Positions 8,130-34,200 of a stretch of DNA of 64,000 bases are shown in pieces. Under the pieces are notes generated by a model, which saw only the letters and a list, made by a program, of their open reading frames with translations, did no database searches and was not told the origin of the DNA. Position 1 is the stretch's first letter; each line of letters begins with the position of its first letter. Where the stretch lies: positions 62,001 through 126,000 of the forward strand of contig NC_134035.1 in the NCBI RefSeq assembly GCF_964204645.1. The letters are read 5' to 3'. Source of the stretch: Tubulanus polymorphus (Eukaryota > Nemertea > Palaeonemertea > Tubulaniformes > Tubulanidae). The position numbers and the translations under genes were made by a program.

Positions 8130-9161
8130 TTGGTTGTACGTCACAGAGATCGGACTGCGCTGAACACGATGACTGAGAGTCCCGCTACTACAGTACCGGT
8201 TGTCAATACGACAACATGCGACACGACAGTCGTCGATACAGCACGAATAGTCGTCATTCAAATACGCATGGGTTTAGCCATCCCGAGTGTTATCGGTAAC
8301 TGTTTATCGTTTGCGGTGATGACGATGAAGAAGAACCGGTGTCTGACTAGTTGTTTCCTGATGGCGAATCTGGCGATAGTTGATACGATTCCGCTGTTAG
8401 CTTTCCTTCACGATTATCTGTCGACGGCTCGACTGCACGATACTAACACCCGCCCGTTTTACTGTCAACTGGGAGTGTTCCTCGGTAATCTCGGTGTCAC
8501 ATCAGCCGCTTGGATCGTGTTTCTGATGACGGCCGAGCGCTGCGTGGCGATCCTGATGCCGTTAAAAGTATCGCAGATTTGTACGATGAGAAACGCTCGA
8601 ATATCGGTTCTTGTCGTCTACGTGGTAGTATCCATCAGACATATACATTCATTTTTCTTTTTCACAACCACATTTGACGCCGACTCGGGCTGGTATTCGT
8701 GCGTGTTCGTCGAAGGCTACGACAACGTTATGGTCGCCGACCGAATTTTCAAATTAGCATTCGACTCGCTTGGACCGTGCGTGCTCATTTTCATAGCCAA
8801 TATTTTGATTATCATGAGTTTGAGAAAACGTCAGCAGGCGAACCTGGGAGCCACGAGTTCCGGTGCGACGGACAAGAGAACTTATTCACAACAGCAAATT
8901 ACTCGCACGTTGCTGTTCGTGTCTATAACGTTCTCAGTACTGGTGACACCGCACACAGTGCGTACATTCCTGCAGGCTGTCAACCCTGCTCCTCCTGCCT
9001 CGTGTAACTCAACCTCTTACAACAAGGACAGCATCATCGATAAAGTACTTCACGGTCTGCTGTACGTAAACCACGGTATAAACTTCTTTCTGTACTGTAT
9101 AGGAGGAGGAAAACGATTCCGAAATGACGTGGCCGCCGTTCTCAAGTGTAAAAGAAACTAA
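8130..9161 (+). CDS. Rhodopsin-like (class A) G protein-coupled receptor, single exon
   Basis: Seven-transmembrane plasma-membrane receptor of 343 residues without introns. Predicted helices: TM1 about 43-70 ('IPSVIGNCLSFAVM', with the GN motif), TM2 'ANLAIVDTIPLLAF', TM3 after 'FYCQLG', TM4 'ISVLVVYVVVSI', TM5 'LGPCVLIFIANILIIM', TM6 'LLFVSITFSVLVTP', TM7 'VNHGINFFLYCIGG'. Cysteines in 'FYCQLG' and 'YSCVF' fit the TM3-ECL2 disulfide. The DRY position reads ERC ('TAERCVAI') and NPxxY is replaced by 'NHGINFFLYC'. TM7 followed by 'GGKRFRNDV' resembles invertebrate peptide or orphan receptors (FMRFamide-receptor-like); the ligand cannot be inferred. A second ATG at 8169 is an alternative start. 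An NTT sequence and other Ser/Thr-rich residues precede TM1. Confidence 0.88.
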   Translation: MVVRHRDRTALNTMTESPATTVPVVNTTTCDTTVVDTARIVVIQIRMGLAIPSVIGNCLSFAVMTMKKNRCLTSCFLMANLAIVDTIPLLAFLHDYLSTARLHDTNTRPFYCQLGVFLGNLGVTSAAWIVFLMTAERCVAILMPLKVSQICTMRNARISVLVVYVVVSIRHIHSFFFFTTTFDADSGWYSCVFVEGYDNVMVADRIFKLAFDSLGPCVLIFIANILIIMSLRKRQQANLGATSSGATDKRTYSQQQITRTLLFVSITFSVLVTPHTVRTFLQAVNPAPPASCNSTSYNKDSIIDKVLHGLLYVNHGINFFLYCIGGGKRFRNDVAAVLKCKRN

Positions 9162-10680: not shown

Positions 10681-13600
10681 TTATGTTGCCGCTATCTGCA
10701 AAAACCGATAAGAAAATACATTAAACATATAGAATTTTCCATTTTACTTGATAATCACAATAAAACGAGTTTGTATTTTGATTTCGGTCGGGGCGACGAT
10801 GGGTGTGCCGGACGCCAGAGCGACGATGGGTGTGCCGGACGCCGGAGCGACGAGGGGTGTGCCGGACGCCGGAGCGACGATGGGTGTGCCGGACGCCGGA
10901 GCGACGATGGGTGTGCCGGACGCCGGAGCGACGATGGGTGTGCCGGACGCCGGAGCGACGAGGGGTGTGCCGGACGCCGGAGCGACGATGGGTGTGTCGG
11001 ACGCCGGAGCGACGATGGGTGTGCCGGACGCCGGAGCGACGATGGGTGTGCCGGCCGCGCAGTTATCAGCTGAGGTAATCAAATCTAATTTACATACCTT
11101 CGCCGTGCTTCCGGTTGGCGGTTTGACTTGGAATTTTTTCTTTTCGGATTTCTTGATATCGTTCGTCGACGCCTTAACTGCGTTATCGGCGTTGAATAAA
11201 CCAACTGCGCCACCATCCAGATCGGCCAGACTACCCAGATTCGACTGACTATCAGATACGTTATCGGCTAGAGTTTGTTTCTCTTCTAACATCGCTTGCA
11301 CTTTCGGGTCGTCCAGATTCAAGTCGGCTTTTCCTTCCAGCCAAAACGTTTTCATCACACCCTTACCCTAAAATCAGAACAAGTCGAAGTAACTTGAAGT
11401 TTTACTGTAACAAATAAGGGAGGATCTTTGTTTGGGAGAAAATAGAAAATTTCTTAAATTAATTTCTTAAATTTATTATCATTTTATCAAGGAATATGAA
11501 TTGTTTCCTCGTGACCGTCATCAAATAGTGCCCTGGTCCCCAACCTTCAAAAAATCCAGGCTCCACCCTTGCTGTAAAATGCAATAATTCGGATACTTAC
11601 CTTTACTTGTACGGTTCCACGTTCTTTGACGGAGAACGGAAATCCTTCCAGTAAAACTTTAGTCGTTTCGGAGATGTGAATTTTCTGCGCTTCCGAATTG
11701 GTTTCCATTCGAGATGCGGTGTTTACAGCATCCCCGAATAGACAGTATCTGGGCATCTTTAAACCGACAACTCCGGCTACGACTGAGCCTGAGTGAGCGC
11801 CTGCGAACAGAGAAATACATGACTGTCATATTCCGAGTTTTATTAAGAGTACATACATGATCCGTGTTAGAGAATTTAAGATTCAAAGTTTCAAGTTTAA
11901 TTCGGGAACACCGCGGAACACTTGGTCAAGAATCAAGGCTTAACCCAGGACTGTGAAACTGTCGAAATCATTCCTTCAGATATGAAACTCACCAACTCGA
12001 ATGGTTACTTGTTTCTGACTGTTTGGATCTTTAATCTCGTACATAGTGGCGATCATATCTAACGCCATTTCGCTGATATAACAAGCGTGATATTTGATAA
12101 CATTCGGGACCCCTGAAGCCACCATGTACGCGTCACCGATTGTCTCAACCTGTAATAAAACGATGAGTGTATGTTTAAGTGTACTCACCGGCGCGTACGT
12201 TTATAGGTTTCCCGGAGCTCGGGTCTTTAATGTCGTTTGCCGAAGCCATCATCTCGAGCGCCATTTCGCAGATATATGCGGCGTGATACTGGCAGCGTTT
12301 CGGAGCCCCGGACGCGATCATGTACGAATCTGCGATCGTTTCCACCTGTAACAGAGGCAAGCTATTTTTGAACGCAGAAATTTTCGCAATATTTGAAAGC
12401 CCGGAAATTTTCACCCCTTAAGTGTATGCGAGAACGAATGTATTCGATCGAATTGATATCAGTGATTTTTTATCTGATGATAATTTGTTTAGAATAAGCG
12501 AAAATTTCCAGTTTTCTAATAGCCAGACTCTGCTGAATGGACACGGGATAAACACAGTTGATTGTCCCCTACAGATCAGCACTTTAGTTTCATTGAAACC
12601 AAATTGGGGTCTATATCTAGAGTACTGTATAACCCTAGCGAGATATTCACAAACCACTGAAGTCCAGCGGTTAAGTAAAGGTAACCTAGCCCCAGTTGCA
12701 CAGCTTTGACTTGTCCAAAAATGGTCCTTAATCACATTAAGACACAATGTACAATTATAATAATCAGATCCACTGTGCAACTGGATCCTGGTCACGTGGT
12801 GCTAGGCCCATGTCTTATTGTCAAACTGTCACTCTTGATAGTTTACAGATGAACTCGCGTTTTGTACGGTGTGAAGTCTTACCTTGTAAACCCTGTGCTT
12901 TTCGCTTAATGTATCGAACTTCGTGTACATCGAGTTGAGCATCGTGACCACTTGTAACGGGGTGATTTTACTACAGATTGTCGTGAATCCAACTACATCA
13001 CTGAACAACACTGTTACACATTCAAACGTCTGTCAAATATACAACATACACTTACTAGACGTCAGGGGTTGGTTTAATATGTTAACCTTTGAATTGAATC
13101 ATTATTTAATGATCAGAAATATTGACCACTTTTATCTTTAACCCCAGGGGCCAATTGCACAGTCATGACTTAAGTCGAAAAGTGGTCTTGAATCTTAAGA
13201 CTGGTCTTAAGTTGTTAGATTAGCAATAAAACTAAGTTGGTCTTAGACTGGTCTTAAGTCTAAGCCATGACTATGCAACAGGCCCCTGGAATGATTTAGA
13301 GACTTAGTGATGATTTCAACCCGGAGTTAAAAACCCAATTCGACTATGGCCATAAGTCAATCATGTGGACAATCTTTGTCACTGGAATAAAACATACCTC
13401 ACAAGTAGCGACTGGATCCTCTCCACGACGAAGCCGTTCAGCCACAGATCGCGGTATCATTTGATATAACAACTGATCGGTTCGTTTCATCTCAACGTGA
13501 AGACGCTTCATGAATTCTTCCAATTTCTTAGATTTTTGTTGTTCCTATTGAACGAATGGGTGAAATCATAATTCTTTCGGTTGTTTCGTGTTTGGCGCAC

Positions 13601-16600
13601 AATGATTTTCACACTGACAAAACAATTAATTTTCAAAGTCTGATGATGTGATTTCTGTTGATTTGTTAGTGTTTTACTTTACCTGATCAAGAGCGAGTTT
13701 CAGTTCTGCCGACTGCTGGGTACCGGCCAGAATCAAGTCACGTGACGAGTCGTGCATGCTCAAATCGTTAATGAAAAGACCGGCGTTGAACATATCATTG
13801 ATATCTTTCATTCTGTAAGATGAAGTGAAACATCTCAAATATACACTGTATGTTCTTCACCTCAATCTAATACCATATACTTACACAGGACATCCTAAGA
13901 ATATAATACTGTCCCAATCGTTCATGTACAACATTTGACCTTTGAGTTTCAAACATTTTGTGGAGCCACCGTCTGCTTCCTCACCACCATCTGATTCTCC
14001 TCCCTGCAGGAACAATACATCATCAAACATCATCAAACACCGATATTACCCAGCCCCGCCGGGATTACCCAGCCCCACCGAGATTACCCAGCCCACCGAG
14101 ATTACCCAGCCCCGCCGAGATTACCCAGCCCCGCCGAGATTACCCAGCCCCACCGAGATTACCCAGCCCCGCCGAGATTACCCAGCCCTACCGATATTAC
14201 CCAGCCCCACCGAGATTACCCAGCCCTACCGATATTACCCAGCCCTACCGATATTACCCAGCCCCACCGAGATTACCCAGCCCTACCGATATTACCCAGC
14301 CCACCGAGATTACCCAGCCCCGCCGAGATTACCCAACCCCGCCGAGATTACCCAGCCCCGCCGAGATTACCCAGCCCCGCCGTGATTACCCAGCCCCGCC
14401 GATATTACCCAGCCCCGCCGAGATTACCCAGCCCCACCGAGATTACCCAGCCCCGCCGAGATTACCCAGCCCCGCCGATATTACCCAGCCCCGCCGAGAT
14501 TACCCAGCCCCACCGATATTACCCAGCCCACCGAGATTACCCAGCCCCACCGAGATTACCCAGCCCCACGAGGACTTAGCTCCACGCAGAGTTCACTTAA
14601 CTCAATGCAGTATAGAGCTTTCACAAAGCTGAATGAATTGAGAACGAGAAGGTTGATAACTGTTTAACCTAACGCACATAACCCAAATCTATAATGATTC
14701 CTTTCAGAAATTAGGAAACCATGAAACCAACCTTTTTATCGCCATCTTCCTTTTCAGCATTTTCTTTATCTGCTTTTTCTTTTTCTGCCGCTTTCGCTTC
14801 TTTCTCTTCTTTCTCTTTTCTCTCTTTTGCCTCTTCTTGCTTTTGCTCGAGAAGTTTTCGTTTGCTCTCCCTGAGGACACGTGATAACATATTCAACGAT
14901 CAAATATCGGTTCACTCGTGCAAACGATTTCAGTTATAAGTTTAAAGTTTTGAATACATTCGACACTCGATATGCGAGCATCGATATCGTATATAATTTA
15001 CCTTCTTTCCATAACACTGGAATGTTTCTTTGACCTCCCTGTAGGTTTTGAACTGCTACCTCCTTTCATCAACGCGTTTAATTTCGCCTGCGCTTTCTCT
15101 ACGTCATCTCGCCGTCCTCCTTTTGCTACTTTACCCACACGATTTTTCTCTTCCTCAGCTGCAAATACAACGAAACTGTTTGTTGTTGTGTGGAGTTTTA
15201 ATTATTTGAACTGCTGGCCGAGGATTATTTATCACTTACCGAATTCCTTCAGATATTCTTGAAGATCTTTAACTTCTAACTTCGTTACGATTTCGAACAC
15301 GTTGTTTGTGTGCATCATCACCTATTTATCGATTAGTTTATGTATTTAGATTCAGCAGGGACCAGTTGTACAGTAGCAGCAGGGGCCAGTTGTACAGTAG
15401 CAGCAGGGGCCAGTTGTACAGTAGCAGCAGGGGCCAGTTGTACAGTAGCAGCAGGGACCAGTTGTACAGTAGCAGCAGGGGCCAGTTGTACAGTAGCAGC
15501 AGGGACCAGTTGTACAGTAGCAGCAGGGGCCAGTTGTACAGTAGCAGCAGGGACCAGTTGTACAGTAGCAGCAGGGACCAGTTGTACAGTAGCAGCAGGG
15601 GCCAGTTGTACAGTAGCAGCAGGGACCAGTTGTACAGTAGCAGCAGGGGCCAGTTGTACAGTAGCAGCAGGGACCAGTTGTACAGTAGCAGCAGGGGCCA
15701 GTTGTACAGTAGCACAGGGACCAGTTGTACAGTAGCAGCAGGGACCAGTTGTACAGTAGCAGCAGGGACCAGTTGTACAGTAGCAGCAGGGACCAGTTGT
15801 ACAGTAGCAACAGGGGCCAGTTGTACAGTAGCTGCTTATTTTGTTATAGTCGATTTATAATTTTTTATACTTACAGATTCCCAGCTGAAGCCGACAAGTG
15901 GTCGCGTCAAGTCGAAAATCTGGTTGATAGCATGACCCAACAGTTCGGGCATGACAGCCTTCAGACCATCGCCTATATACCGGACGGTCATACCACGATT
16001 GAATACTAAGTTGAACGGGAACACCTCGAAGAACACGTCTGACGGAACGGGTAAAGCATCTACTAATCGTTCAGCCTGAAGTTGGGCTGCTGTTTTGTAC
16101 GCGTGATTCGTGAAGTGCAATCGTAGAATGACGTTGATCATCGATTCTTGTACGAACTCAGACACGATCTCGATTTCTACTTCCGTGTCGTAAACAGACT
16201 TCGCCACTTGTCGAATCTGACCTTTGACGTAATGGATGAAGTTACGTCTTCGGGATCTGTAGTGAAGTGTGAGCCCGGTTTTCGATTCGTTCACGCAGAA
16301 GAAGCTAGGCGGTTTCAGTTTTGGGTAACTGAATCGTAGATATTCGTGTAGATTGTCCAGACCGTTCAGGAAATCTCGTAAATGACGTCCTAACACTTTC
16401 AACACGCCGTCGTAACCGTACTGACCGACGAAAGCGACGAATGTGACTCCCAAATCTTCTAAAACCTCCTCAACGGAGAAACCAGTCAGGTCGGACGCCG
16501 CCTCGGCCAGTGCCGGGATGTAATTCTCGTTGTAGACTTTGTGAGTGTTGAACGTAGTGAGAGGGATTCCCGCTAACTTCACAACCTGCTCCCAAATATC

Positions 16601-16657
16601 TTCACCATACTTGATTTTTACGTAATAGAAAATACCCTCTAACAATAAACCATACAT
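10681..16657 (-). CDS. Atypical haem-domain (soluble) guanylate cyclase, Gyc-89Da/Db-like
   Basis: Cytosolic enzyme that makes cGMP from GTP. Exons: 15875-16657, 15240-15321, 15002-15158, 14732-14870, 13885-14003, 13683-13812, 13398-13544, 12883-13029, then 12189-12345 or 11993-12149, 11601-11800, 11098-11367 and a tiny final exon 10681-10695. All join in frame, giving about 781 residues. Residues 1-185 are an H-NOX domain with the proximal haem ligand His104 ('LDNLHEYL') and Y133-S135-R137 of the YxSxR motif. The run '[20 protein letters not shown]' closely resembles insect Gyc-89Db, an oxygen-sensing subfamily. The HNOBA region carries a Lys/Glu-rich insert (exons 3-4). The cyclase domain has both metal aspartates ('LFSDVVGFT', 'ETIGDAYM'), the guanine-selecting Glu and 'MPRYCLFGD', and 'NTASRME'. 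Exon 4 ends at a weak donor (GTTGGT). Reading through the exon-11 donor instead would add a GTPIVAPAS repeat tail ending at 10744. Confidence 0.9.
10795..11058. repeat. 27-bp minisatellite in the last intron of the cyclase gene
   Basis: About ten copies of a 27-bp unit containing 'acgatgggtgtgccggacgc' plus 'cggagcg'. It lies between a good donor (AAG then GTATGT, at 11097) and a strong polypyrimidine acceptor ending at 10696, so it is probably intronic. Because 27 is a multiple of three, read-through on the minus strand would encode tandem GTPIVAPAS. Confidence 0.9.
11993..12149 (-). other. Alternative exon 9b of the cyclase (catalytic core)
   Basis: A 157-nt exon between a consensus acceptor (TTACAG) and donor (GTGAGT). 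It encodes the second metal-binding aspartate in '[15 protein letters not shown]', then '[14 protein letters not shown]' and 'KQVTIRVG'. It is a paralogue of exon 9a (12189-12345), with the same length, the same starting phase (0) and the same ending phase (1). This copy keeps the canonical family sequence IGDAYM. Confidence 0.88.
12189..12345 (-). other. Alternative exon 9a of the cyclase (catalytic core)
   Basis: A 157-nt exon, acceptor TTACAG and donor GTGAGT. It encodes '[15 protein letters not shown]', '[14 protein letters not shown]' and 'KPINVRAG'. Compared with 9b, the invariant Gly before the metal-binding Asp is Ala, and the following Ala is Ser. Both the guanine-selecting Glu and the Asp are kept. 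Only 39 nt separate its donor from the 9b acceptor, and including both exons would break the frame (314 nt). Confidence 0.88.
12685..12807. mobile_element. MITE-like element, family A, in cyclase intron
   Basis: Flanked by 'cctagc' and 'gctagg'. It has inverted internal ends: 'ccagttgcacagctttgact' at the left and 'actgtgcaactggatcctgg' at the right. It is related to the elements at 13144-13289 and about 51659-51750. Non-coding. Confidence 0.6.
13144..13289. mobile_element. MITE-like hairpin element, family A, in cyclase intron
   Basis: Near-palindromic: the left end 'ccaggggccaattgcacagt' mirrors the right end 'actatgcaacaggcccctgg'. Internal repeats read 'ctggtcttaag'. The whole 146 bp could fold into one hairpin in the intron before exon 8. 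Confidence 0.7.
14040..14572. repeat. 19-bp minisatellite filling cyclase intron 4
   Basis: About 28 copies of 'attacccagccccgccgag' with variants (caccgag, taccgatatt) and some units 2 bp shorter. It occupies most of the intron between the exons ending at 14732 and starting at 14003. The open frames through it are artefacts of low complexity. Confidence 0.92.
15352..15835. repeat. 24-bp minisatellite filling cyclase intron 1
   Basis: Twenty copies of a 24-bp unit containing 'gggaccagttgtacagtagc' plus 'agca'; G/A variants (ggggcc/gggacc) alternate along the array. It covers about 484 of the 553 nt of intron 1 (15322-15874). All six frames stay largely open because 24 is a multiple of three, but none is coding. 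Confidence 0.93.
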
Positions 16658-18640: not shown

Positions 18641-18703
18641 CGACGAACGATTCAATTGATTGTATTCAACAATTTATTTCTAAAACCTTGAAAGCGCTTT
18701 CAT

Positions 18704-21700
18704 ATGATTTTAAGTTTATTCTGGTTTTTCGCAGACGCCACTGCTACAAGAAACAGCACATTTCCATTTAAAAATCGCTTGCCGGGAAGATTCCCAGGAT
18801 TTCCGGCACCCGACGATAAACAGGTGACCGTTAAAAATGATGTAAACTCGACGAGCGTACCGCCACCGACCACAGCAACAACTACTGATCAAATTCAATC
18901 TGTATCTGAGTCTACTGCTGCTGCAGCTACAACAACTACTGATCAAATTCGATCTGTATCTGAGTCTACTGCTGCTGCAGCTACAACAACTACTGATCAA
19001 ATTCGATCTGTATCTGAGTCTACTGCTGCTGCAGCTACAACAACTACTGATCAAATTCGATCTGTATCTGAGTCTACTGCTGCTGCAGCTACAACAACTA
19101 CTGATCAAATTCGATCTGTATCTGAGTCTACTGCTGCTGCAGCTACAACAACAACAGCCATTGTTTCTACTTCTAAACCAGATACAACAAATATTAAGAA
19201 AACGAGAAAATATAATTCGAATAACGAAGAGAATTTCACTTGTAAATCGATAGCGGTTCCAGCGCACGATGATCGAACCAATCATAGCCTGGCATTGATA
19301 TCGTCGATTTGTATCCCAGCCAGTCGCATCGACCCCGAAACATCATCAAACTTCATTAAGAAACAGATTTACAACGATTTGATCGGCTTTTTATCGCACG
19401 GCGTTTCCTCGTTGATAGAGGGAGGAGGGACGACTGATTTGACGGATGATTTAGTCTACTACGTTCAAAACTGCGGCTCCAAATTTCCGCTGTATATGAA
19501 TTCCGGTCCATTAGAGATCTCTACCCCTAACTACCCGGATAACTACCCACCGATGGCGACGTGTAAATGGACGATACGATCGAGTAAGGGCTACCGACTA
19601 AAACTGAACATGGAGATAGACGTAGAAGAAGGTATGGACTGCGAGTATGATAGATTCACGGTAATCGATGAACAGGCTGGTGTAACTGATTACTACTGCG
19701 AGGAGACAGGTAATCTCTACATATACACGACCGCAGGTCCTGAAATACAGATGGTATTTTTCAGCGACGATGAATTCGAAACTGCTGGCGTCCTGATTCG
19801 ACTCGAACAAATACCGGATACGGAACTTTTCGATAGTTTTCTGTTGGAGGAAACGTTCGCGAGTGAGTATCTGAAACGCGACAATAGAGTGATTTCCGTT
19901 CGAGGAAGGAACCAAAAACGTACAGTTGCGATCGGGATGGATAATGGTCGGTACATCAGCGATACCTGGTCATTCCGCGTGCTGTCCAATCACTCCATTC
20001 AAATAGTCGTTCATGATTTGAATATGACAAATTCGGGCGCGAAATGCGTAGATGAATATCTAGAAATTGTCGATGTAATTTTGAATTCGACGTCTCGGCT
20101 TTGCGGTAAACGAACGCACGCGGTCTTAAACCTGATGGGCTCGGAGGCGAAGTTTACTGTACGCCTGAGGTCGACTAGTTCGCTAGAAACCCTTCAAAAT
20201 GCTTTGTTCGCGTCCGTTTACGCGACTCCAAATACAATACAGTACCGACCACTAAAACATATTAATATAGATGTAGCAAATAATACTAAGGAATTCATAC
20301 TAAGTCACCAGGCTCCTTCTGTACCGATTAAAACAGTCTTTCAATACCAATTTCGAGCACCGTATTTCCTACGAGTTCATCTACAGTTTGAAGGTATCGA
20401 CAACACGACTATAGACCAAATTGAGTATAAAGAAGGCCCGTGGGATATCGCTACGGAAATGAAACCGTTATCCGAAAAGTATTTAACATCTAATTCGCCA
20501 ATAGTTTTTGTCCAGTTCACCGTCGATATGAGTAAACTTGGCCACAATTATAAGGTGAAGGTCACGCATACGGCTTTACAGCTTATCATCACTAATCACA
20601 AAACCGTTCAAATGCGCCGCGTTGTCGAAAGGAATCAGTTATTCTCAGATGACAGCGGAGGATATTTACCGAATACTTATTCTTATATTCGAGCCGATTT
20701 GGGCATTTCGTCTTCGTTGCGAGTTAGATTGGCAATAAACTCGAGTAAAACGGCTCCGGTCGACGATACATGCTCTCATTGGGGATTCGGGTTCATAGAT
20801 AGAGACCCGAGTGGGGACACGGTGATGTACGGTCCATTCTGCGGTAATTCTAACAGCAGCGGTATCCCAGCGTCCTACGTCGCGCATAGTTCGAAATTAG
20901 AACTGATTTGGTATTCTTACGGGATTTACTTGAATAATGAAATATTCGGGGTTTTAAGTATGGATGTATTATATACAGAATGCGTTGGATACGTGTTAGG
21001 TGAATCGACCGCGCCGATACAGAGTACCGGTCCTCCTTGTCTACACGTACAGCAGTTACCGGCCAACAAACCACTGACCGGTAATGTCTCAATAACGATA
21101 ACCAGCGGGAGGGTCGCATACGAAACCAAAAATCCGCACTCGCTAACCTTAGTAAACAGTTCATTTTGTAAAGAAACCCGCACCGTATCGACGACTTGCA
21201 GCACTGGAAACGAAGGTTGCCGGGTTGAGGCGGTGATGTCTTCGGAATGTCCGTATTCTCAGTCTGCGTGGGGGATAACGTTCACGTACGTGTGTAGCCT
21301 GTCACAGCCCCATAATCAGATTAAATGGCTACAGAAACCATGCGGGGTTTTAAGATCGATGCAAAGTCTTAAACGCAGTCCTGTGGTTAAGATATTCTGG
21401 AAACTAACGGCTTGTTCGAGAGACAATGACGGTTATTACGAATTCGAATTTCTATCCGCGTTACCGGAGAAATTTGGACTGGTTACCATCACCGAAACGG
21501 TCGCGTATCCTCGATGTAGTAATTCAACTATCGGTAGGAAATCAGTGAACGATGTTATTCTTAGCGATATCGCTCAACACAGTAAATACAGAACTTACTC
21601 TAACCAGAGAATTGTAGTCGAAGCGATGCTGATGAGCGAAGACGCAAAACTAGAAATCAGGTTTGTACTGGAGCGGTTTCTGCGGGTTAGGGGTGTCCTG

Positions 21701-24700
21701 GGATCTGGTAATAAACAACCCGATAATAACTTTACGACTGTCGAACATAATGGTGGTTACTACACGTATGTTCCCGCGTCAAAGATACCCTGGATGTTCC
21801 AGACCTGGCACGACCAGAGAGCGGACTGTAAGCGGCTAACCGGCGGTGATCTAGTCAGCATCAACACCGATGACGAATGGAATTTCATTAGATACCATCT
21901 ACAAACAGGTGTCTGGGCAACGCTGGCTGCTTCTTCGCAAGATCGCAGGATCGCTATTGGACTTTTCATAGATAAAACAGTAAGTTAGAAGATGTGCTTT
22001 ACAAGCCGCGATCACACGACGAGCATTTTGAACCGTACCAAAATCGGCCTGGAACAACAGTGTTCGCACTGGTGCCAAATCGACCCTTCCTTGCCTGTTT
22101 GACCCGTGCCGTTGGACCAGGCCCGAACCAAATTTTAGTGCAGGTAGAATTGTTGCGTTGGAAACTGCAGCGGTGAAAGCGGCGACAATAATTTACTGAA
22201 TTACGTTTCTTGCTTGCAACTGGTTCCGGAAGTGTCTCACGATTTTTGTATCGAGTGAGTGCTCTCTTATAAGGCATGGGCCAAATCTCGGGCCTGACCC
22301 GGGCCAAATCGTCGCCGTGTGATCGTCATTGTCATTGCAATTTTTTACCATCGCGATATCTCCATAAATATCACTACTAACCGTCTGATATCTGTGTGTG
22401 ATTTATCATTACAGACAGGTATGTTAGAATGGAGCGATGGAAGCCCGTATAATTACAATGAATTCCTATCGGTTCAGATGTCGTCTCTTGTGAAAAATCG
22501 TCAAATATCTAACGTGGAATTAGCTATTCATCTATTACTGATACAGAATCCTAGTCGAGCGTTCGCGCAGCTCACTTTACCAAAGTACGTGGCGAATCCT
22601 TCAGACTATATCTGTAAATACAGCGTGTCGAACTCAACCTCAGAACCCATTCATATTGAATCAGGTATCTATATGTGTACTAGCGTTGTTTCTATTTCCA
22701 AGCAAATTTTCTTTTTATTTTTGTATTTAGTAACACACTTTAACTAGCGATGTGTCGATCTGCAGCATGTGGCTCAATCGAAGGCTGCTGATTGGTCTCT
22801 ACCGATTCCGGAATTCCTTCTGGCGCATTCATTTCGACCAGAATACACTCTATCCCTATTCTGGAATAGTATAATCCGTAACCCCCGATAGAAGCGACTG
22901 GGAGAGAGTTCGTTCCTTCAAAATCGAAAACTCTTGCTCAGTATTAATCTGCAACATGACACCACACCTTTCAAACTAAAAGAAAAAAACATTTCCGAAA
23001 GGGTTGGTGCCAGGCTTTAACATAATATCGGAATGTTTTTCTCTTGCGCAGGTTCTTCTTATAAGAAATGTCGCGACGACGGTATGGTGTTCTTCAAAAA
23101 CGTGTGTATCAGTCTAGAGGAAAGATTCGTCATCGAAAGTGAATGTTTGAGCGTCGATCAGAAAAGGTTTTCGTTCCGTTCAACACAAGTAGATGAAATG
23201 AAAAAGTTGTTTTTGATGTTAAAAATTCCTCGTGAAAAAAAGGTCGAAATGAACAACGGCGTGAAAGGTTGCTTTATGGCTACACTCGGCATAAACGACG
23301 ACATTCGATCATTAAGCTGTTTTCTACCTGTTTCAAAAAGAGCTAAATTTCTGATTTTATGTCAGAGCGATCCTATTGAACAGGAGACAGTGTGTAACAG
23401 GGAACAGATTGAATGCGGTGACGGTACGTGTGTCTCGTACGACCGTCAATGTGACGGTCACGCTGATTGTCCCGGTGGTGACGACGAACACTCGTGCGGT
23501 ACAGCGACACCTGCTCCGATGTCTCGGTGCAACGATGGCAGTTTTGTTCATATCGAACGAATTTGCGATTTTTCGATCGACTGCTCGGACGGATCGGATG
23601 AAAGCGCGTGCGTTTATCCATCCTGTAACAGCGAACAGTATCGCTGTAATTCGGGTAAATGTATCAGTTACATGAAACGATGCGATGGTTATAAAGATTG
23701 CGATGACGGTGTTGACGAAGATGCGTGCACCTCGGCGGATTGTCGAGGCGTCTGGTGTCCGAGTACATCGATATGTTTACCACTAGTAACAGCACGAAAC
23801 GGTCGTATCGAATGTCCTCCTCCGGACGAGACAGATGAACTGATGAACGTCTCTTATTCGTGTGATAGTGTGAAACACGCGAGTTGTAACAACGATTTCT
23901 CCAAATGTTTCAATCGAAAGAACACGTGTATTCTCGACCGAGCCGGGAACCGTTCGTTCGAGCAGTGCGACAACCAGGCGCATCTTAAACACTGTCAGAA
24001 CTTCGAATGTCCGGGTAAATTCAAATGCCACAATTCCTACTGCATCAACATGAAACACAGGTGCGACGGTGTGATCGATTGTGGAGGAGGTGAGGACGAA
24101 TCGGGCTGTTCGAACCGTTCGTGGAAATCGGGTTTGTTTCGATGCTCCGAGGAGGGTTACCTGTTGTCCCAATCGCAGGTGTGCGATGGTACATTAGACT
24201 GTCCGATAACCGGTGAAGATGAACGTTATTGTGAACTAACGCCTTGTATCAGTGGCTGTAAGTGTATCGGGCACCAGGTGAACTGCAGCGAACCGACTAC
24301 CGGCATCGTGCCATTCATTATACGATTAACTGATCATTTAAAGTCGCTTTCAATCCAAAATAACAAAATGACAGTTTTTTCTGGTCTGTTCGTCGGGTTG
24401 AAACGATTGATTAGTTTAACTTTGCGTAGAATCATTCTGAACAGAGTGACGTCAACCACTTTCGGTAAAATGCTCAATCTCAGGTATCTGGATGTAAGTA
24501 ACAACGCGATCGCTGAGCTGACCGCGAATTCATTGACGGGTCTAACCAATCTACGACAGCTGATTATATCTAATAATCCCATCATTAAAATACACCACGA
24601 TACATTCTCTAAACTGATAAATCTACAACATCTCAACTGTTCCGGCATCAGTAAAATTGTACTCGGCAAATTCGTCATCCCAAGATCTCTTCGGTCATTG

Positions 24701-25840
24701 GACGCCACAAATTCCTTCATCGAATCTGACGAGGCGATTCGTCCAGCAGGCGACAGTCCAAATCAAAATATGATTCCCAATGGCGCCAGTCTGCTGACCA
24801 AGGGATCCAGAATCGCAAAAACTGGTATCGAATTCTTGCAATCGTCGGCACAGACCTCGTCTCGGAACAGCTCGTATCTAGTGTATTCAGATGATTTTGT
24901 GACTTGTTGCGCGGCGGCCGGATTGGCTCGTTGTAACGCGTCGATACGGGAACCCCTGTCAACCTGCACCGATTTCATCCACGACGTAAAATTACGCCTG
25001 TTTCTTTGGGTTTCGGCGATATTCGGAAATGTCGGCAACGTTTGTATAATCGTAGGTAAAGTCGTTAGATTTACGAGGACCGCCGATCTCACCATCCGAA
25101 TATCAGCCTTCGTCGTCATCAACGTCGCTATCGTCGGTTTCTTGGCATCGAATTTCTCGTTGATTTTGATGCTGGCAGATGTTTATATGTCGTCTGGAGA
25201 TTATTTCCATTATCATAACGAATGGCGGAACGGTACATTGTGTAGTTTTACAGGATTTCTAGGATCTGTTTGCCCAATGATGACCACATTTACGGCGCTG
25301 TTAGTATCGATGAAACGTCTCTATATGTACCCGAACACTAAGAAGCACCCACGTCTATTGGTTTACTTCGTAGTCGCCTGCATAGTTGCCTGGATGGTCG
25401 GGATAGGTTTAAGCGGTTGTAATTTGGTCATCTTGCCCGGTGGTTATAATCATCTGAACAACTTATGCTTGGTGCAGGATTCCACGAGTATTTGGGTGTC
25501 TATTGTTTATCTGTACACACCAGTAGTTATCGGCGGTTTAGTTATCGTCGTGTACTCAGTAATGGCTGTCGTCGTTAGAATCAACAGAAATTCTCCCAGT
25601 AAACACGGAATCGAAGATACCATTTCGATCGGTTTACTGATTTGTCTTATCCCGTCTTGTTTAGGGGGTTTCTCTACTCTGGGGGTAGGTCGCGATTCTA
25701 ATCTGTGGTTTAACGCCGCTACGCTGTCGTTCATGGCGTTATGCGCGCCGCTGATGATTCTAACGCAGTGCCCGAGACACGTCAAAATACCTAACAATCA
25801 GCATCACGAAGAAAACAAGGAAAACTTATCGAAATACTAA
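18704..25840 (+). CDS. Large CUB / C-type lectin / LDLa / LRR seven-transmembrane receptor (GRL101/LGR-like)
   Basis: Cell-surface receptor of about 2104 residues in at least three exons: 18704-21979, 22415-22664 and 23052-25840. After a Thr/Ser-rich stretch with an 18-residue repeat comes a CUB domain at about 256-370 ('ISTPNYPDNYPP', 'CEYDRFTV') and further CUB-like segments. A C-type lectin domain at about 1008-1175 ('LEWSDGSPYNYNEF') is split by intron 1. Exon 3 holds several LDLa repeats with 'CDGxxDCxxGxDE' calcium motifs from residue 1290, a cysteine cap ('CISGCKCIGHQVNC'), leucine-rich repeats ('LRYLDVSNNAI', 'LRQLIISNNPI') and a 7TM domain from about 1825. LDLa-LRR-7TM order is that of Lymnaea GRL101. 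The helix-3 motif is 'KRLYMYP' and NPxxY is absent. Initiation is uncertain: 'ttctggtttttcgcag' at 18719-18734 is a strong acceptor, so the first ATG may be intronic and the signal peptide upstream. Confidence 0.88.
18890..19150 (+). repeat. 54-bp coding repeat in the receptor N-terminus
   Basis: Five tandem 54-bp units encode the 18-residue repeat 'TTTDQIRSVSESTAAAAT'. It is Ser/Thr/Ala-rich and would form an extended, probably O-glycosylated stalk. The units are nearly identical (first copy DQIQ, others DQIR), indicating recent expansion. Confidence 0.9.
22005..22326. mobile_element. MITE-like element in the receptor's first intron
   Basis: The ends are inverted repeats: left 'cgatcacacgacgagcattt', right end in reverse complement 'cgatcacacggcgacgattt'. 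The roughly 320-bp insert fills most of the intron between exons ending 21979 and starting 22415. It is non-coding. Confidence 0.6.
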
Positions 25841-28247: not shown

Positions 28248-31200
28248 CTTTTAAATGCTCTTTTCACTTTTTTGCCCAAATCTTTAAGACTCCAGGCTCC
28301 GGTGTCTTGTTGAACGCTTTCCTTAAATTCGGCGACCTGTTTCTGGAAAATTCCTACAAAGATCCCAATAACGCATTATCAATTCGACACGGCAAATAGA
28401 GGCAGTAGACCTTTGGTATTCATAAACAATAATAGACTGTATATAATTAAATTGAAGAAGAAACCCACAATAACTATCAAAACAATAAGAATTTTGAAAT
28501 TGGCTCATGGGAATTTCTTAATGTCACTTCTCTCTTGGTTTTTCTTGATAATATCTGGCGCTGGTTAAATTTACCTGATTGAGGCGCTTCAGCCTCTAAT
28601 TGATCTATGATGAACAGATCAAACATTTGAGTTTCCACGAACCAACGTAGAAACATGCGAATTCCTCTCGACGACGGACTCTTAACAAACAACTCTTTCT
28701 GTTATAAAACAAATCATACAGGAACAAATTGTACACAAAACATCGGCATCGTTTATGGGTTTAACTAATTTCTACTGTCATGAACAATTATATTTGTACC
28801 TGGAATATTTTCTGTCCGTCATGTTGCACATTGATATAATCTTCGTAATGTCGGATTGTCATTAAGAAATAATGCATGAATGCCTCCGATATCATCAGGT
28901 TCCTAGTGGCATCATCTTTAGTAGAAATACATCATATTTATTATCAAGTACACAACAAATTTGTTAAATGATTAACGTTTGAGGAAGAAAAAGGGAGGAG
29001 ATACTCAGTGAGAGGGAGGAGATATTCAGTGAGAGGGAGGAGGTACTCAGTGAGAGGGAGGTACTCAGTGAGAGGGAGGAGGTACTCAGTGAGGAGGAGA
29101 TACTCAGTGATGAAATAAAGAAGAGTAACAGATCAACTAACCCGGTTCAGAGAATGACATCTGTAAAGCTTGAAAGAGAGCTCTACGCAGTTTATTTGGT
29201 AGAATGGTCAATTCATCTTTCTGTTCTCTATATAAACAGATCTCATCGATATTCACAATCAAAACCTGAAAATATCAAATATCACTCAGATACTGATTGA
29301 ACTAGAGAATTGCCAGTTCGAATGAAATTAGGTATTGTACCTCTTCCATCGGCAGATCGTAAACATCATCCATAAACTCCGTCAATATTCCAACAATATA
29401 CGGCGTAGGTGAACAAACGATATCGATCATCTCAGGTGGCAGCACCGGTATGAATGTGTGTTGCCAGGACAACGGATACAACAAGGCAACCATCGCGTGA
29501 ATACAAGAAGACAATGTTCTGAAAAATATTCGTCCTATACAGCAAACTAAGTTCCTTCATTGGTTTCAAACTATATCATAGAAGAGAACTACGTGTACCC
29601 AAGATTTGTTGCAGAAAATATAATTCTTCTTTCAGACAACATCGACGCAAATATCTTCAATACGTTATCAATTCCTAAAACTTGAACCATGTTATCATAG
29701 GACACCTAAAAATATAAAACACACAATTCTAAATACCGGGACTGGGGTAAATGATATTTACTGTCTTGAGGAACTGGTTCTGAAGTTCTTAGTTGAAAAT
29801 TAACATGATCAAAACATTAGAAATGAACTAATTCTAACAATATATGCTGCAGTGAAAATGAACTCAGAGCTGTGTGGTGAACCAGCTGCTGATGGTTCAG
29901 CACTGAACTCAGAGCTGTGTGGTGAACCAGCTGCTGATGGTTCAGTGCTGAACTCAGAGCTGTGTGGTGAGCCGGACACTGATGGTTCAGCGCTGAACTC
30001 AGAGCTCTGTGGTGAGCCGGACACTGATGGTTCAGCACTGAACTCAGAGCTGTGTGGTGAGCCGGACACTGATGGTTCAGTGCTGAACTCAGAGCTGTGT
30101 GGTGAGCCGGACACTGATGGTTCAGCACTGAACTCAGAGCTCTGTGGTGAGCCGGACACTGATGGTTCAGCACTGAACTCAGAGCTGTGTGGTGAGCCGG
30201 ACACTGATGGTTCAGCACTGAACTCAGAGCTCTGTGGTGAGCCGGACACTGATGGTTCAGTACTGAACTCAGAGCTGTGTGGTGAGCCGGACACTGATGG
30301 TTCAGTGCTGAACTCAGAGCTCTGTGGTGAGCCGGACACTGATGGTTCAGCACTGAACTCAGAGCTGTGTGGTGAGCCGGACACTGATGGTTCAGCACTG
30401 AACTCAGAGCTGTGTGGTGAGCCGGACACTGATGGTTCAGCACTGAACTCAGAGCTGTGTGGTGAGCCGGACACTGATGGTTCAGCACTGAACTCAGAGC
30501 TGTGTGGTGAGCCGGACACTGATGGTTCAGCGCTGAACTCAGAGCTGTGTGGTGAGCCGGACACTGATGGTTCAGCGCTGAACTCAGAGCTCTGTGGTGA
30601 GCCGGACACTGATGGTTCAGTGCTGAACTCAGAGCTGTGTGGTGAGCCGGACACTGATGGTTCAGCACTGAACTCAGAGCTGTGTGGTGAGCCGGACACT
30701 GATGGTTCAGCGCTGAACTCAGAGCTGTGTGGTGAGCCGGACACTGATGGTTCAGCACTGAACTCAGAGCTGTGTGGTGAGCCGGACACTGATGGTTCAG
30801 CACTGAACTCAGAGCTGTGTGGTGAGCCGGACACTGATGGTTCAGCACTGAACTCAGAGCTGTGTGGTGAGCCGGACACTGATGGTTCAGTGCTGAACTC
30901 AGAGCTGTGTGGTGAGCCGGACACTGATGGTTCAGCACTGAACTCAGAGCTGTGTGGTGAGCCGGACACTGATGGTTCAGCACTGAACTCAGAGCTGTGT
31001 GGTGAGCCGGACACTGATGGTTCAGTGCTGAACTCAGAGCTGTGTGGTGAGCCGGACACTGATGGTTCAGCACTGAACTCAGAGCTGTGTGGTGAGCCGG
31101 ACACTGATGGTTCAGTGCTGAACTCAGAGCTGTGTGGTGAGCCGGACACTGATGGTTCAGCACTGAACTCAGAGCTGTGTGGTGAGCCAGACACTGATGG

Positions 31201-34200
31201 TTCAGTGCTGAACTCAGAGCTGTGTGGTGAGCCGGACACTGATGGTTCAGTGCTGAACTCAGAGCTGTGTGGTGAGCCGGACACTGATGGTTCAGTGCTG
31301 AACTCAGAGCTGTGTGGTGAGCCGGACACTGATGGTTCAGTACTGAACTCAGAGCTGTGTGGTGAACCAGCTGCTGATGGTTCAGTACTGAACTCAGAGC
31401 TGTGTGGTGAGCCGGACACTGATGGTTCAGTACTGAACTCAGAGCTGTGTGGTGAGCCGGACACTGATGGTTCAGTGCTGAACTCAGAGCTGTGTGGTGA
31501 GCCGGACACTGATGGTTCAGCACTGAACTCAGAGCTGTGTGGTGAGCCGGACACTGATGGTTCAGATCTATTCATGTACTGATACAAAACGTACGTTTTC
31601 AAATCGTGCATCTTCTTGTCTCTGAAATCTATTATCAGCAACGAGCCCATCAGTATTCTAAAAATACAACCAGTAACTTTACAATGAATGAATACAGGGA
31701 ATGTATAGGAGAAGATTCAGAGTGTTTATAGTGTTCTACAAAATTAGGACTGAATCTTGTTACATCCGTGATATTGGAGCATTCCTTATGTTATAGATCA
31801 TTAAGGTTATATTGAAAAATACAGTAATCATTAATTGACAGGTTTTTTCAATATGGAGACCAACTTACAATGACGCAAATAGAAATAGTGTTTCCTGGTT
31901 TTGGTAGCGGCCGTGAATAAGCAATCTCGATGAACGTAGTCGCTAAATCTTCCTGTTCCAGATACCGCTTCTCAATCTCTGATAGAATCTACAGTATAAT
32001 TACAATATAATACAGCGTTATTACAATACAGAATATTCATTCTGTGCAGGGGTAAATGAAAAATCTGTAAGAAGTTGCGGCATTAATTCGATGTCTGACC
32101 TGATGGTATAGCGATTGCGCTCCACATGGTGACACTATACATACAACTATCGGATAGACCTCTAGTTTACCAGACGGCTAATAAAACAAGACATATTATC
32201 ATTATTAGGAATTTTCTTAAAATTTCCACGACAGAAAAGCTGAGAATCGTACCAGGAACCGTTGGCAATATCCGTAATTACGACTTCCATCACAATTCGT
32301 CAAAACAAATGAATAAGTTTCACTGTAAAATAAACAAACGCATCCGATCTTAGCATAAAACCCAATTCACAGTTAACTGAGTAAACACCGGGTTAAAGTC
32401 AATACGGTTTTATCACCAGCTCCCCCGGGGATTTATCTAGTTTCATGATTACTTAATCAAGATAATGCTGCAATAACAGGGTTTATAGTTATATAAAGGC
32501 CAAGACTATGTTTAAGTTAAAACTGGCAGCTGATCCCAATGAATCATCACAGCAGTTTCGTGTTAAAGTTTTTACATCCGGTTGCAAGTTGTTTGAAAGA
32601 AACTCACCTTTTAAATTCACTGTAAGGTTTGATTATAGAGACATCCGGGAAACAGAATTGTGGAATACAAAACTCTTCAGGTTTCACCTATAAAAGTCGT
32701 TTATATTTATATCAACACATTTGAGACCGACTGTATTTTCTTCTGAACCAAACACTGGTAACTGGGGTATCTTTATTATTTTGGGAATATTATCAAACAA
32801 GCAATAAACTATTTATACATAATTGAAAGGTGTTTTTGTTCGATGTTGAACACGTTCAGTTTCATTTCCTACTTATTGCATCTTACGTCATACCGGTTGT
32901 TAACGGTTGTTTCTTCGAATGAAAAAAGAATAAACTTACGTTATGCGGAAACTTGTATTTGATGTACGGAATGAGATTGCCTTCCACTTTTTTTACGCCG
33001 ACAATGATAGCGTAGTCGAATAGTGAAGGGTAGATGAGTTTACGGAATGCTCGTATTCTCGTGTATACAGACGCCTAAAATTACAATTGAAACTCAGGTG
33101 AATTACGGGTTTAAAGACAACATACATCATAACAGTCGCATCTTTCTGGACTCGATAAAATCTGTACGACTTGAGAGCGATATCTCTGTTATCTCCGAGT
33201 TCATCGGATCTTACTCGAAAGGACAACTGTAATAAAGGTCAAGGTTAGGACCAGCAGACCGGGAGTCGAAAAGTTCTCACGATTTTTCAAGTGTAAGAGA
33301 GAGGTATAAGAGAGAGGTATAAGAGAGAGGTATAAGAGAGAGGTATAAGAGAGAGGTATAAGAGAGAGGTATAAGAGAGAGGTGGCTGACCTCTAGTCGA
33401 GGTATGCGTACCGTAGAATTTGGAGATAAACAGTTAGTCAGAAACGACCAGCCTAAATCTGTATTGATTTCGTACCCAAACGATACAACTGTTTCCATAG
33501 CAACGAGAGATCCACGTTCATCGAACCGCGCTGTCGAGCGAATCGAATCATCAGTCGCTGTCAGACTATCGTTACCTAGCAACGGCGAAGTAGCCACGTC
33601 ATCCGGTGGTTTTTTATCGAGATATTTCTGGAAGAGACTTTGTTTTAACGATGATCGGTTTGTTTTTAATGAGTTACATTTACCGAGAGCGCACGATCCA
33701 CACGGAGTTTTCAAAACAATCGATCGCGGAGTTGAGATTATTATCTGTTTTTGTAACGTTATTGATTGTCTGCGGTTGCTATGGTAATGCGGAGTTAGTT
33801 TACTGCCGCTACTGATAAATGGTTTTATTCTTCCAAGTTTACTTGGATGTCTATTTATACTGTTGTTCTCTGGTGCGCCCCGCGCGATGGAACCCCGTGC
33901 GATGGAACCCCGCGCGACGGAACCATGCGCGACGCAGATAGAATCAGTTTGAACGTTATTCCCCGTAGGATCGGTAATTTGGATCAATGGAACGATTGGA
34001 CTGATAGGCGCTCGCTGATCAGTGATTGGTCGAACGATCGGACTGATGGACGGTTGCTGATTGCTGATTGGTCGAACGATCGGACTGACGGACAGTTGCT
34101 GATTGCTGATTGGTCGAAGTAATCCCGGTATGAAGGGCGTACTGTATGAATTCAGCCATCGTTTCCCATCAGATTCACCAGGTGGCGCCTCTATCACTAT

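Follow-up and report, generated by a model that had tools for sequence, protein, structure and literature searches.

Can one gene for a soluble guanylate cyclase encode two versions of the catalytic core? The question is raised by a gene of the nemertean Tubulanus polymorphus in which one exon of the cyclase domain is present as two adjacent copies, 9a and 9b. The gene lies in a window of 64,000 nucleotides (assembly GCF_964204645.1, contig NC_134035.1, positions 62,001 to 126,000); unless stated otherwise, positions are those of this window. A first-pass annotation proposed that the two copies are mutually exclusive exons and that the gene makes two different enzymes.

Gene structure and predicted product

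The gene occupies 16657 to 10681 on the minus strand of the window. When exons are joined at the GT/AG sites visible in the sequence, the spliced model has 12 exons and a single open frame of 782 codons (782 aa). Its parts are as follows:

Exon 1, 15875-16657, minus strand: H-NOX (HNOB) heme domain and start of HNOBA (Pfam, alignment to human beta1 and exon model)
Exon 2, 15321-15240, minus strand: spliced gene model
Exon 3, 15158-15002, minus strand: spliced gene model
Exon 4, 14870-14732, minus strand: spliced gene model
Exon 5, 14003-13885, minus strand: spliced gene model
Exon 6, 13812-13683, minus strand: spliced gene model
Exon 7, 13544-13398, minus strand: spliced gene model
Exons 2-7 with their introns, 13398-15321, minus strand: remaining HNOBA, Lys/Glu-rich linker and coiled coil, in one open frame
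Exon 8, 12883-13029, minus strand: first metal-binding Asp (FSDVVGFT); ends in phase 0
Exon 9a, 12189-12345, minus strand: alternative version of beta2-beta3 loop to beta4, VETIADSYM...VRA
Spacer between 9a and 9b, 12150-12188, minus strand: 39 nt, GT...AG; in-frame TAA if retained
Exon 9b, 11993-12149, minus strand: canonical version, VETIGDAYM...IRV
Exon 10, 11601-11800, minus strand: guanine-binding Cys (RYCLFGD) and transition-state Asn/Arg (NTASRM)
Exon 11, 11098-11367, minus strand: end of cyclase domain and C-terminal tail
Exon 12, coding part, 10681-10695, minus strand: IAAT-stop

In the product, Pfam detects PF07700 (HNOB/H-NOX; E 3e-50), the start of PF07701 (HNOBA; E 7e-15) and, end to end in both isoforms, the cyclase domain PF00211 (222.7 and 229.8 bits). 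HNOB, HNOBA and cyclase lie in one chain, the arrangement of an H-NOX soluble guanylate cyclase. Both isoforms carry the residue set of a guanylate rather than an adenylate cyclase: the guanine-selecting Glu and Cys, two metal-binding Asp, the Asn and the Arg. These are found in the motifs VETI, RYCLFGD, FSD, the D of IGD/IAD, NTASR and the R of VRA/IRV. Judged by these sequence features, the predicted product is a soluble guanylate cyclase whose single chain holds every catalytic residue, and its class is that of the Gyc-88E-like or 'atypical' soluble guanylate cyclases. An Rfam search of the gene gave no match.

In the heme domain, LDNLHEYL and HYRSRR align with His105 and the YxSxR motif of human beta1. 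Both the heme-ligand His and the Y-x-S-x-R motif are retained. At the position of human beta1 Ile145 the H-NOX domain has a Tyr, a candidate for the distal-pocket Tyr of oxygen-binding H-NOX; this residue suggests that the domain may bind oxygen. An HYV segment with the Tyr is common to the translated nearest paralogue (L001/L002) and a further locus, L003. Its presence in the gene and in these loci suggests an oxygen-binding subfamily.

Minisatellites are found in introns of the gene. Intron 1 contains a 24-bp unit in 20 copies (15353-15832) and intron 4 a 19-bp unit in 28 copies (14038-14569). In intron 11, a 27-bp unit in 10 copies (10789-11058) is in frame with exon 11; read-through from exon 11 would append a repeated ASGTPIVAP tail (open frame 10744-11367).

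Predicted splicing of exons 9a and 9b

The first-pass annotation described two paralogous exons of 157 nt with good splice sites and identical phases, and this description is borne out. Exons 9a (12345-12189) and 9b (12149-11993) are both present on the minus strand; each consists of 52 codons plus 1 nt and is flanked by AG and GTGAGT. They align without gaps, with 102/157 nt (65%) and 29/52 aa (56%) identical, a likeness beyond chance because the tblastn match between them has an E of about 1e-18. Both are entered in phase 0, at the codon boundary after the exon 8 donor (...RVYK), and left in phase 1; the last base of either one forms a GGC codon with the start of exon 10, now placed at 11800. 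On a generic splice-site weight matrix, donor and acceptor score 10.2 and 7.8 for 9a and 8.8 and 9.0 for 9b. These sites are among the best of the gene: the donors of 9a and 9b rank 3 and 9 among 412 GTs, and the acceptors 5 and 3 among 306 AGs. An assembly artefact as the source of the pair was rejected because 9a and 9b differ at 35% of bases and the contig is chromosome-scale.

The open frame is kept only by the exon chains 8-9a-10 and 8-9b-10. Stops are reached by 8-9a-9b-10, by 8-10 and by retention of the 39 nt (VRAGEYT-stop); the earlier claim that joint use shifts the frame is therefore correct.

The spacer had also been called too short for normal splicing, and the introns of this genome agree. 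Nine sGC genes provide 37 well-supported introns, all of them with flanks that align well on either side, and the smallest measures 69 nt. When all sGC paralogues were spliced-aligned automatically, introns under 50 nt were also returned; these were rejected as spurious since they fall in unalignable linkers. A branch-point A anywhere in the spacer would be no more than 36 nt away from the 9a donor, and the A of the best branch-point consensus (CTCAT) is at 25 nt; the steric limit from donor to branch point is about 50 nt (PMC5740500; PMC7969005). Human introns of 43 nt have been reported to be spliced (PMC4463651).

The pair shows the features used to recognise mutually exclusive clusters (similar length, same phase and frame, homology, compatible splice sites) and those of a block on joint inclusion (here the 39-nt spacer, with a frameshift on joint use or skipping) (PMC3228551, PMC5740500). 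RNA pairing between flanking introns, of the docker/selector type, has duplex energies no better than those of shuffled sequences (17, 75 and 50 out of 100 are as good; with one sequence only, this is a weak test), and a scan for RBFOX-, PTB- and NOVA-type motifs gave nothing distinctive. The proposal of mutually exclusive exons agrees with all testable sequence criteria, including purifying selection on 9a (see below), but competing RNA structure is not above chance.

Mutual exclusion by spacing, backed by the frameshift, appears to be the natural reading, because the 39-nt spacer is below the supported introns, the steric limit and the 43-nt human introns and because joint use shifts the frame. 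Under such a mechanism, joining of exon 8 to 9a would leave the 9a donor unable to join 9b, presumably because 39 nt offers too little room for U1 and U2 snRNPs to assemble together, and this donor would join exon 10 instead. When 9a is skipped, exon 8 would be joined to 9b. Splicing errors would result in a frameshift and removal by decay, and the choice of exon would fall to a tissue- or state-specific splicing factor. The gene could in this way make two enzyme types from one locus.

Maintenance and history of exon 9a

At third codon positions 9a and 9b are identical at 24/52 sites, which is near saturation; at codon positions 1 and 2 together, 77/104 are identical (contrast with third positions, p = 0.0008). 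In a codon model, the pairwise omega is 0.13 and neutrality is rejected (2dlnL 19.1). Since constraint on 9b alone could yield this value, the two copies were fitted jointly with the nearest paralogue's only exon 9. Fixing omega at 1 on the 9a branch lowers the log likelihood by 4.5 (p = 0.003); left free, omega is about 0.09 (~0.1). This small test covers 52 codons whose synonymous sites are saturated, and for the short 9b branch it does not reject omega = 1.

Exon 9a contains no stop and no indel despite the near-saturated synonymous divergence. Missing stops are weak evidence alone because a simple simulation of neutral drift also gives stop-free outcomes in roughly 10-25% of cases; the case for a living 9a is carried by the pattern of substitutions and by splice sites that are intact. 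By its sequence, 9a is an old coding exon maintained by purifying selection; this follows from synonymous divergence near saturation in a frame free of stops and indels, together with the rejection of neutrality on the 9a branch.

Up to nine H-NOX loci are found in the genome. The nearest paralogue (C11:13.486-13.497 Mb, with L001 at 13.487 Mb) is on the same contig, 13.4 Mb away. For the segments encoded by exons 8 and 10, its protein identity to the gene is 98% and 90%; its single exon 9 shares 66% identity with 9b and 51% with 9a. Within the cyclase core it is thus exon 9 that has evolved fast between these two genes. Neither the nearest paralogue nor any other sGC gene of this genome yielded a second copy of exon 9. 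Because even the nearest paralogue has only one, the pair is not a general feature of these genes.

A tree of exon 9 (about 53 aa) groups 9a, 9b and the paralogue (support 86/96); at this length, it does not order the duplication before or after the L001 split (AU p 0.24 and 0.36). Either 9a has been lost from the paralogue, or the duplication occurred after the split and 9a has changed faster.

Predicted consequences of the exon swap

The duplicated segment had been said to run from the guanine-selecting Glu through the second metal-binding Asp. Both residues are indeed in exon 9; however, the exon continues past the Asp, via a helix, to the triphosphate-binding Arg of beta4. All three residues are kept in 9a and 9b. 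Aligned to CYG12, exon 9 spans Glu523 to Arg571. The beta2-beta3 loop of CYG12 provides Asp527 for one active site and Glu523 for the other, and it has been proposed to let the two active sites communicate (PMC2576301).

The contrast drawn by the first-pass annotation between a canonical IGDAYM in 9b and IADSYM in 9a is real; the residue before the metal-binding Asp is Gly in 9b and Ala in 9a. This Gly is invariant in 9b, in 20 other exon-9 homologues of this genome and in 41/41 bacterial relatives. The bacterial cyclases (n=41) were taken as a conservation yardstick from a contig search, which gave bacterial cyclases only; no relatives were found in the viral contigs searched. A further 22 residues differ between 9a and 9b (23/52 in total), several of them in the following helix.

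That the two enzymes would have different active-site environments may follow from the Gly-to-Ala change at an invariant position. Since 9a keeps the Glu, Asp and Arg, the claim is better worded as one of tuning than of catalytic loss. In each subunit, the swap would exchange the beta2-beta3 loop, the next helix and beta4 without touching the Glu for guanine, the Asp for metal or the Arg for triphosphate; one heme sensor would then act on two cyclase cores that differ in rate, cooperativity or dimer preference. The 9a core is probably a tuned, slower or conditional form, rather than a dead one. A more far-reaching version, possible though doubtful, is a heme-based gas sensor that switches its own catalytic core by splicing. 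In that case the 9a core would be kinetically reprogrammed or nearly silent, and the formation of a homodimer or a 9a/9b heterodimer would set the oxygen-to-cGMP gain by cell type or state.

Quite probably, then, 9a and 9b are an old tandem duplication with mutually exclusive splicing in a Gyc-88E-like H-NOX cyclase, coupling one heme sensor to two differing cores. Other explanations assign a different role to 9a. It could be a relic, an old duplicate that was only lately silenced in a gene that now uses 9b alone; this would account for its longer branch (0.38 vs 0.11 for 9b), for the break in an otherwise invariant Gly and for a close paralogue with only a 9b-like exon. Silencing is nevertheless quite unlikely: both splice sites are intact and strong, no stop or indel has arisen at near-saturated synonymous divergence, and a neutral 9a branch is rejected (p = 0.003). 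It is very unlikely that 9a is a poison exon, with the 39 nt removed as an ultra-short intron in some transcripts and a frameshifted product that lowers the amount of enzyme instead of providing a second one. The spacer does begin with GT, end with AG and contain CTCAT, which resembles a branch site, and joint use of 9a and 9b leads to an early stop; but 39 nt is below all supported introns here and the 43-nt spliced human intron, and a poison exon has no need for the cyclase-like frame that 9a keeps.

The pair might also be mutually exclusive and yet encode proteins of the same function, in which case the swap would only regulate message level or be neutral between copies. The two copies share the Glu, the Asp and the Arg as well as most residues of the core, and the Pfam scores are only 7 bits apart. 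This explanation is unlikely in view of the 23/52 residues that differ, among them the otherwise invariant Gly beside the metal-binding Asp; in addition, the long-term retention of two diverged copies suggests distinct roles.

To our knowledge, guanylate cyclases are mostly tuned via sensor domains, subunit choice or gene duplication. If 9a and 9b are alternative cores, a single gene can apparently exchange the loop with residues for both dimer active sites while keeping the same heme sensor. The Gyc-88E/MsGC-beta3 atypical class shares with this gene the HNOB-HNOBA-cyclase arrangement and residues for two active sites in one chain; a Gyc-88E-type chain can work as a homodimer because it holds all of these residues. 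Drosophila Gyc-88E has short splice variants. In contrast to the present gene, a duplicated catalytic exon is not reported for this class in the open-access literature searched. More widely, no mutually exclusive exon pair in a guanylate cyclase catalytic domain was found in open-access full text; public annotations may already contain a predicted pair of isoforms that has gone unnoticed.

The proposed splicing arrangement is of an ordinary kind, namely tandem exons whose mutual exclusion is enforced sterically and by frameshift. Smith and Nadal-Ginard (1989, cited in PMC7969005) reportedly described a steric block between donor and branch point that makes alpha-tropomyosin exons 2 and 3 mutually exclusive. 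The steric block is shared with 9a/9b; however, alpha-tropomyosin is a structural protein whose block reportedly depends on an unusual branch-point location, not on a tiny spacer. OGDH exons 4a and 4b are a closer likeness, being a tandem duplicated enzyme exon with mutually exclusive use and a swapped regulatory property (PMC7969005). They yield Ca2+-insensitive and -sensitive forms of 2-oxoglutarate dehydrogenase, and the donor-to-branch-point distance of 25-41 nt is below the steric threshold (PMC7969005). OGDH differs in having distant branch points in a 118-131-nt intron and in swapping a Ca2+ motif (PMC7969005); here the entire spacer is 39 nt, and the cyclase gene would swap a catalytic loop. 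NALCN exons 15 and 31 offer an invertebrate signalling gene in which alternative exons replace functional core residues, the selectivity filters (PMC3557258). Unlike the cyclase, NALCN is an ion channel and its decisive residues change from E to K (PMC3557258); 9a keeps the catalytic residues, and their neighbourhood alone changes.

If the two isoforms are made as predicted, the natural 9a/9b pair is a ready-made test of the beta2-beta3 loop as a link between active sites (PMC2576301). It would also test the need for the conserved Gly before the metal-binding Asp.

Other features of the window lie outside the cyclase gene. A single-ORF rhodopsin-type GPCR (8130-9161, plus strand; 7tm_1, E 2e-21) adjoins its 3' end. 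At 18692-25840 on the plus strand, a CUB-domain ORF precedes an LDLa-LRR ORF whose hydrophobic tail is 7TM-like; Pfam detects CUB, LDLa and LRR only. The arrangement resembles that of snail GRL101-type receptors. A long minisatellite at 29804-31582, with a unit of roughly 39-45 bp, is open in several frames on both strands.
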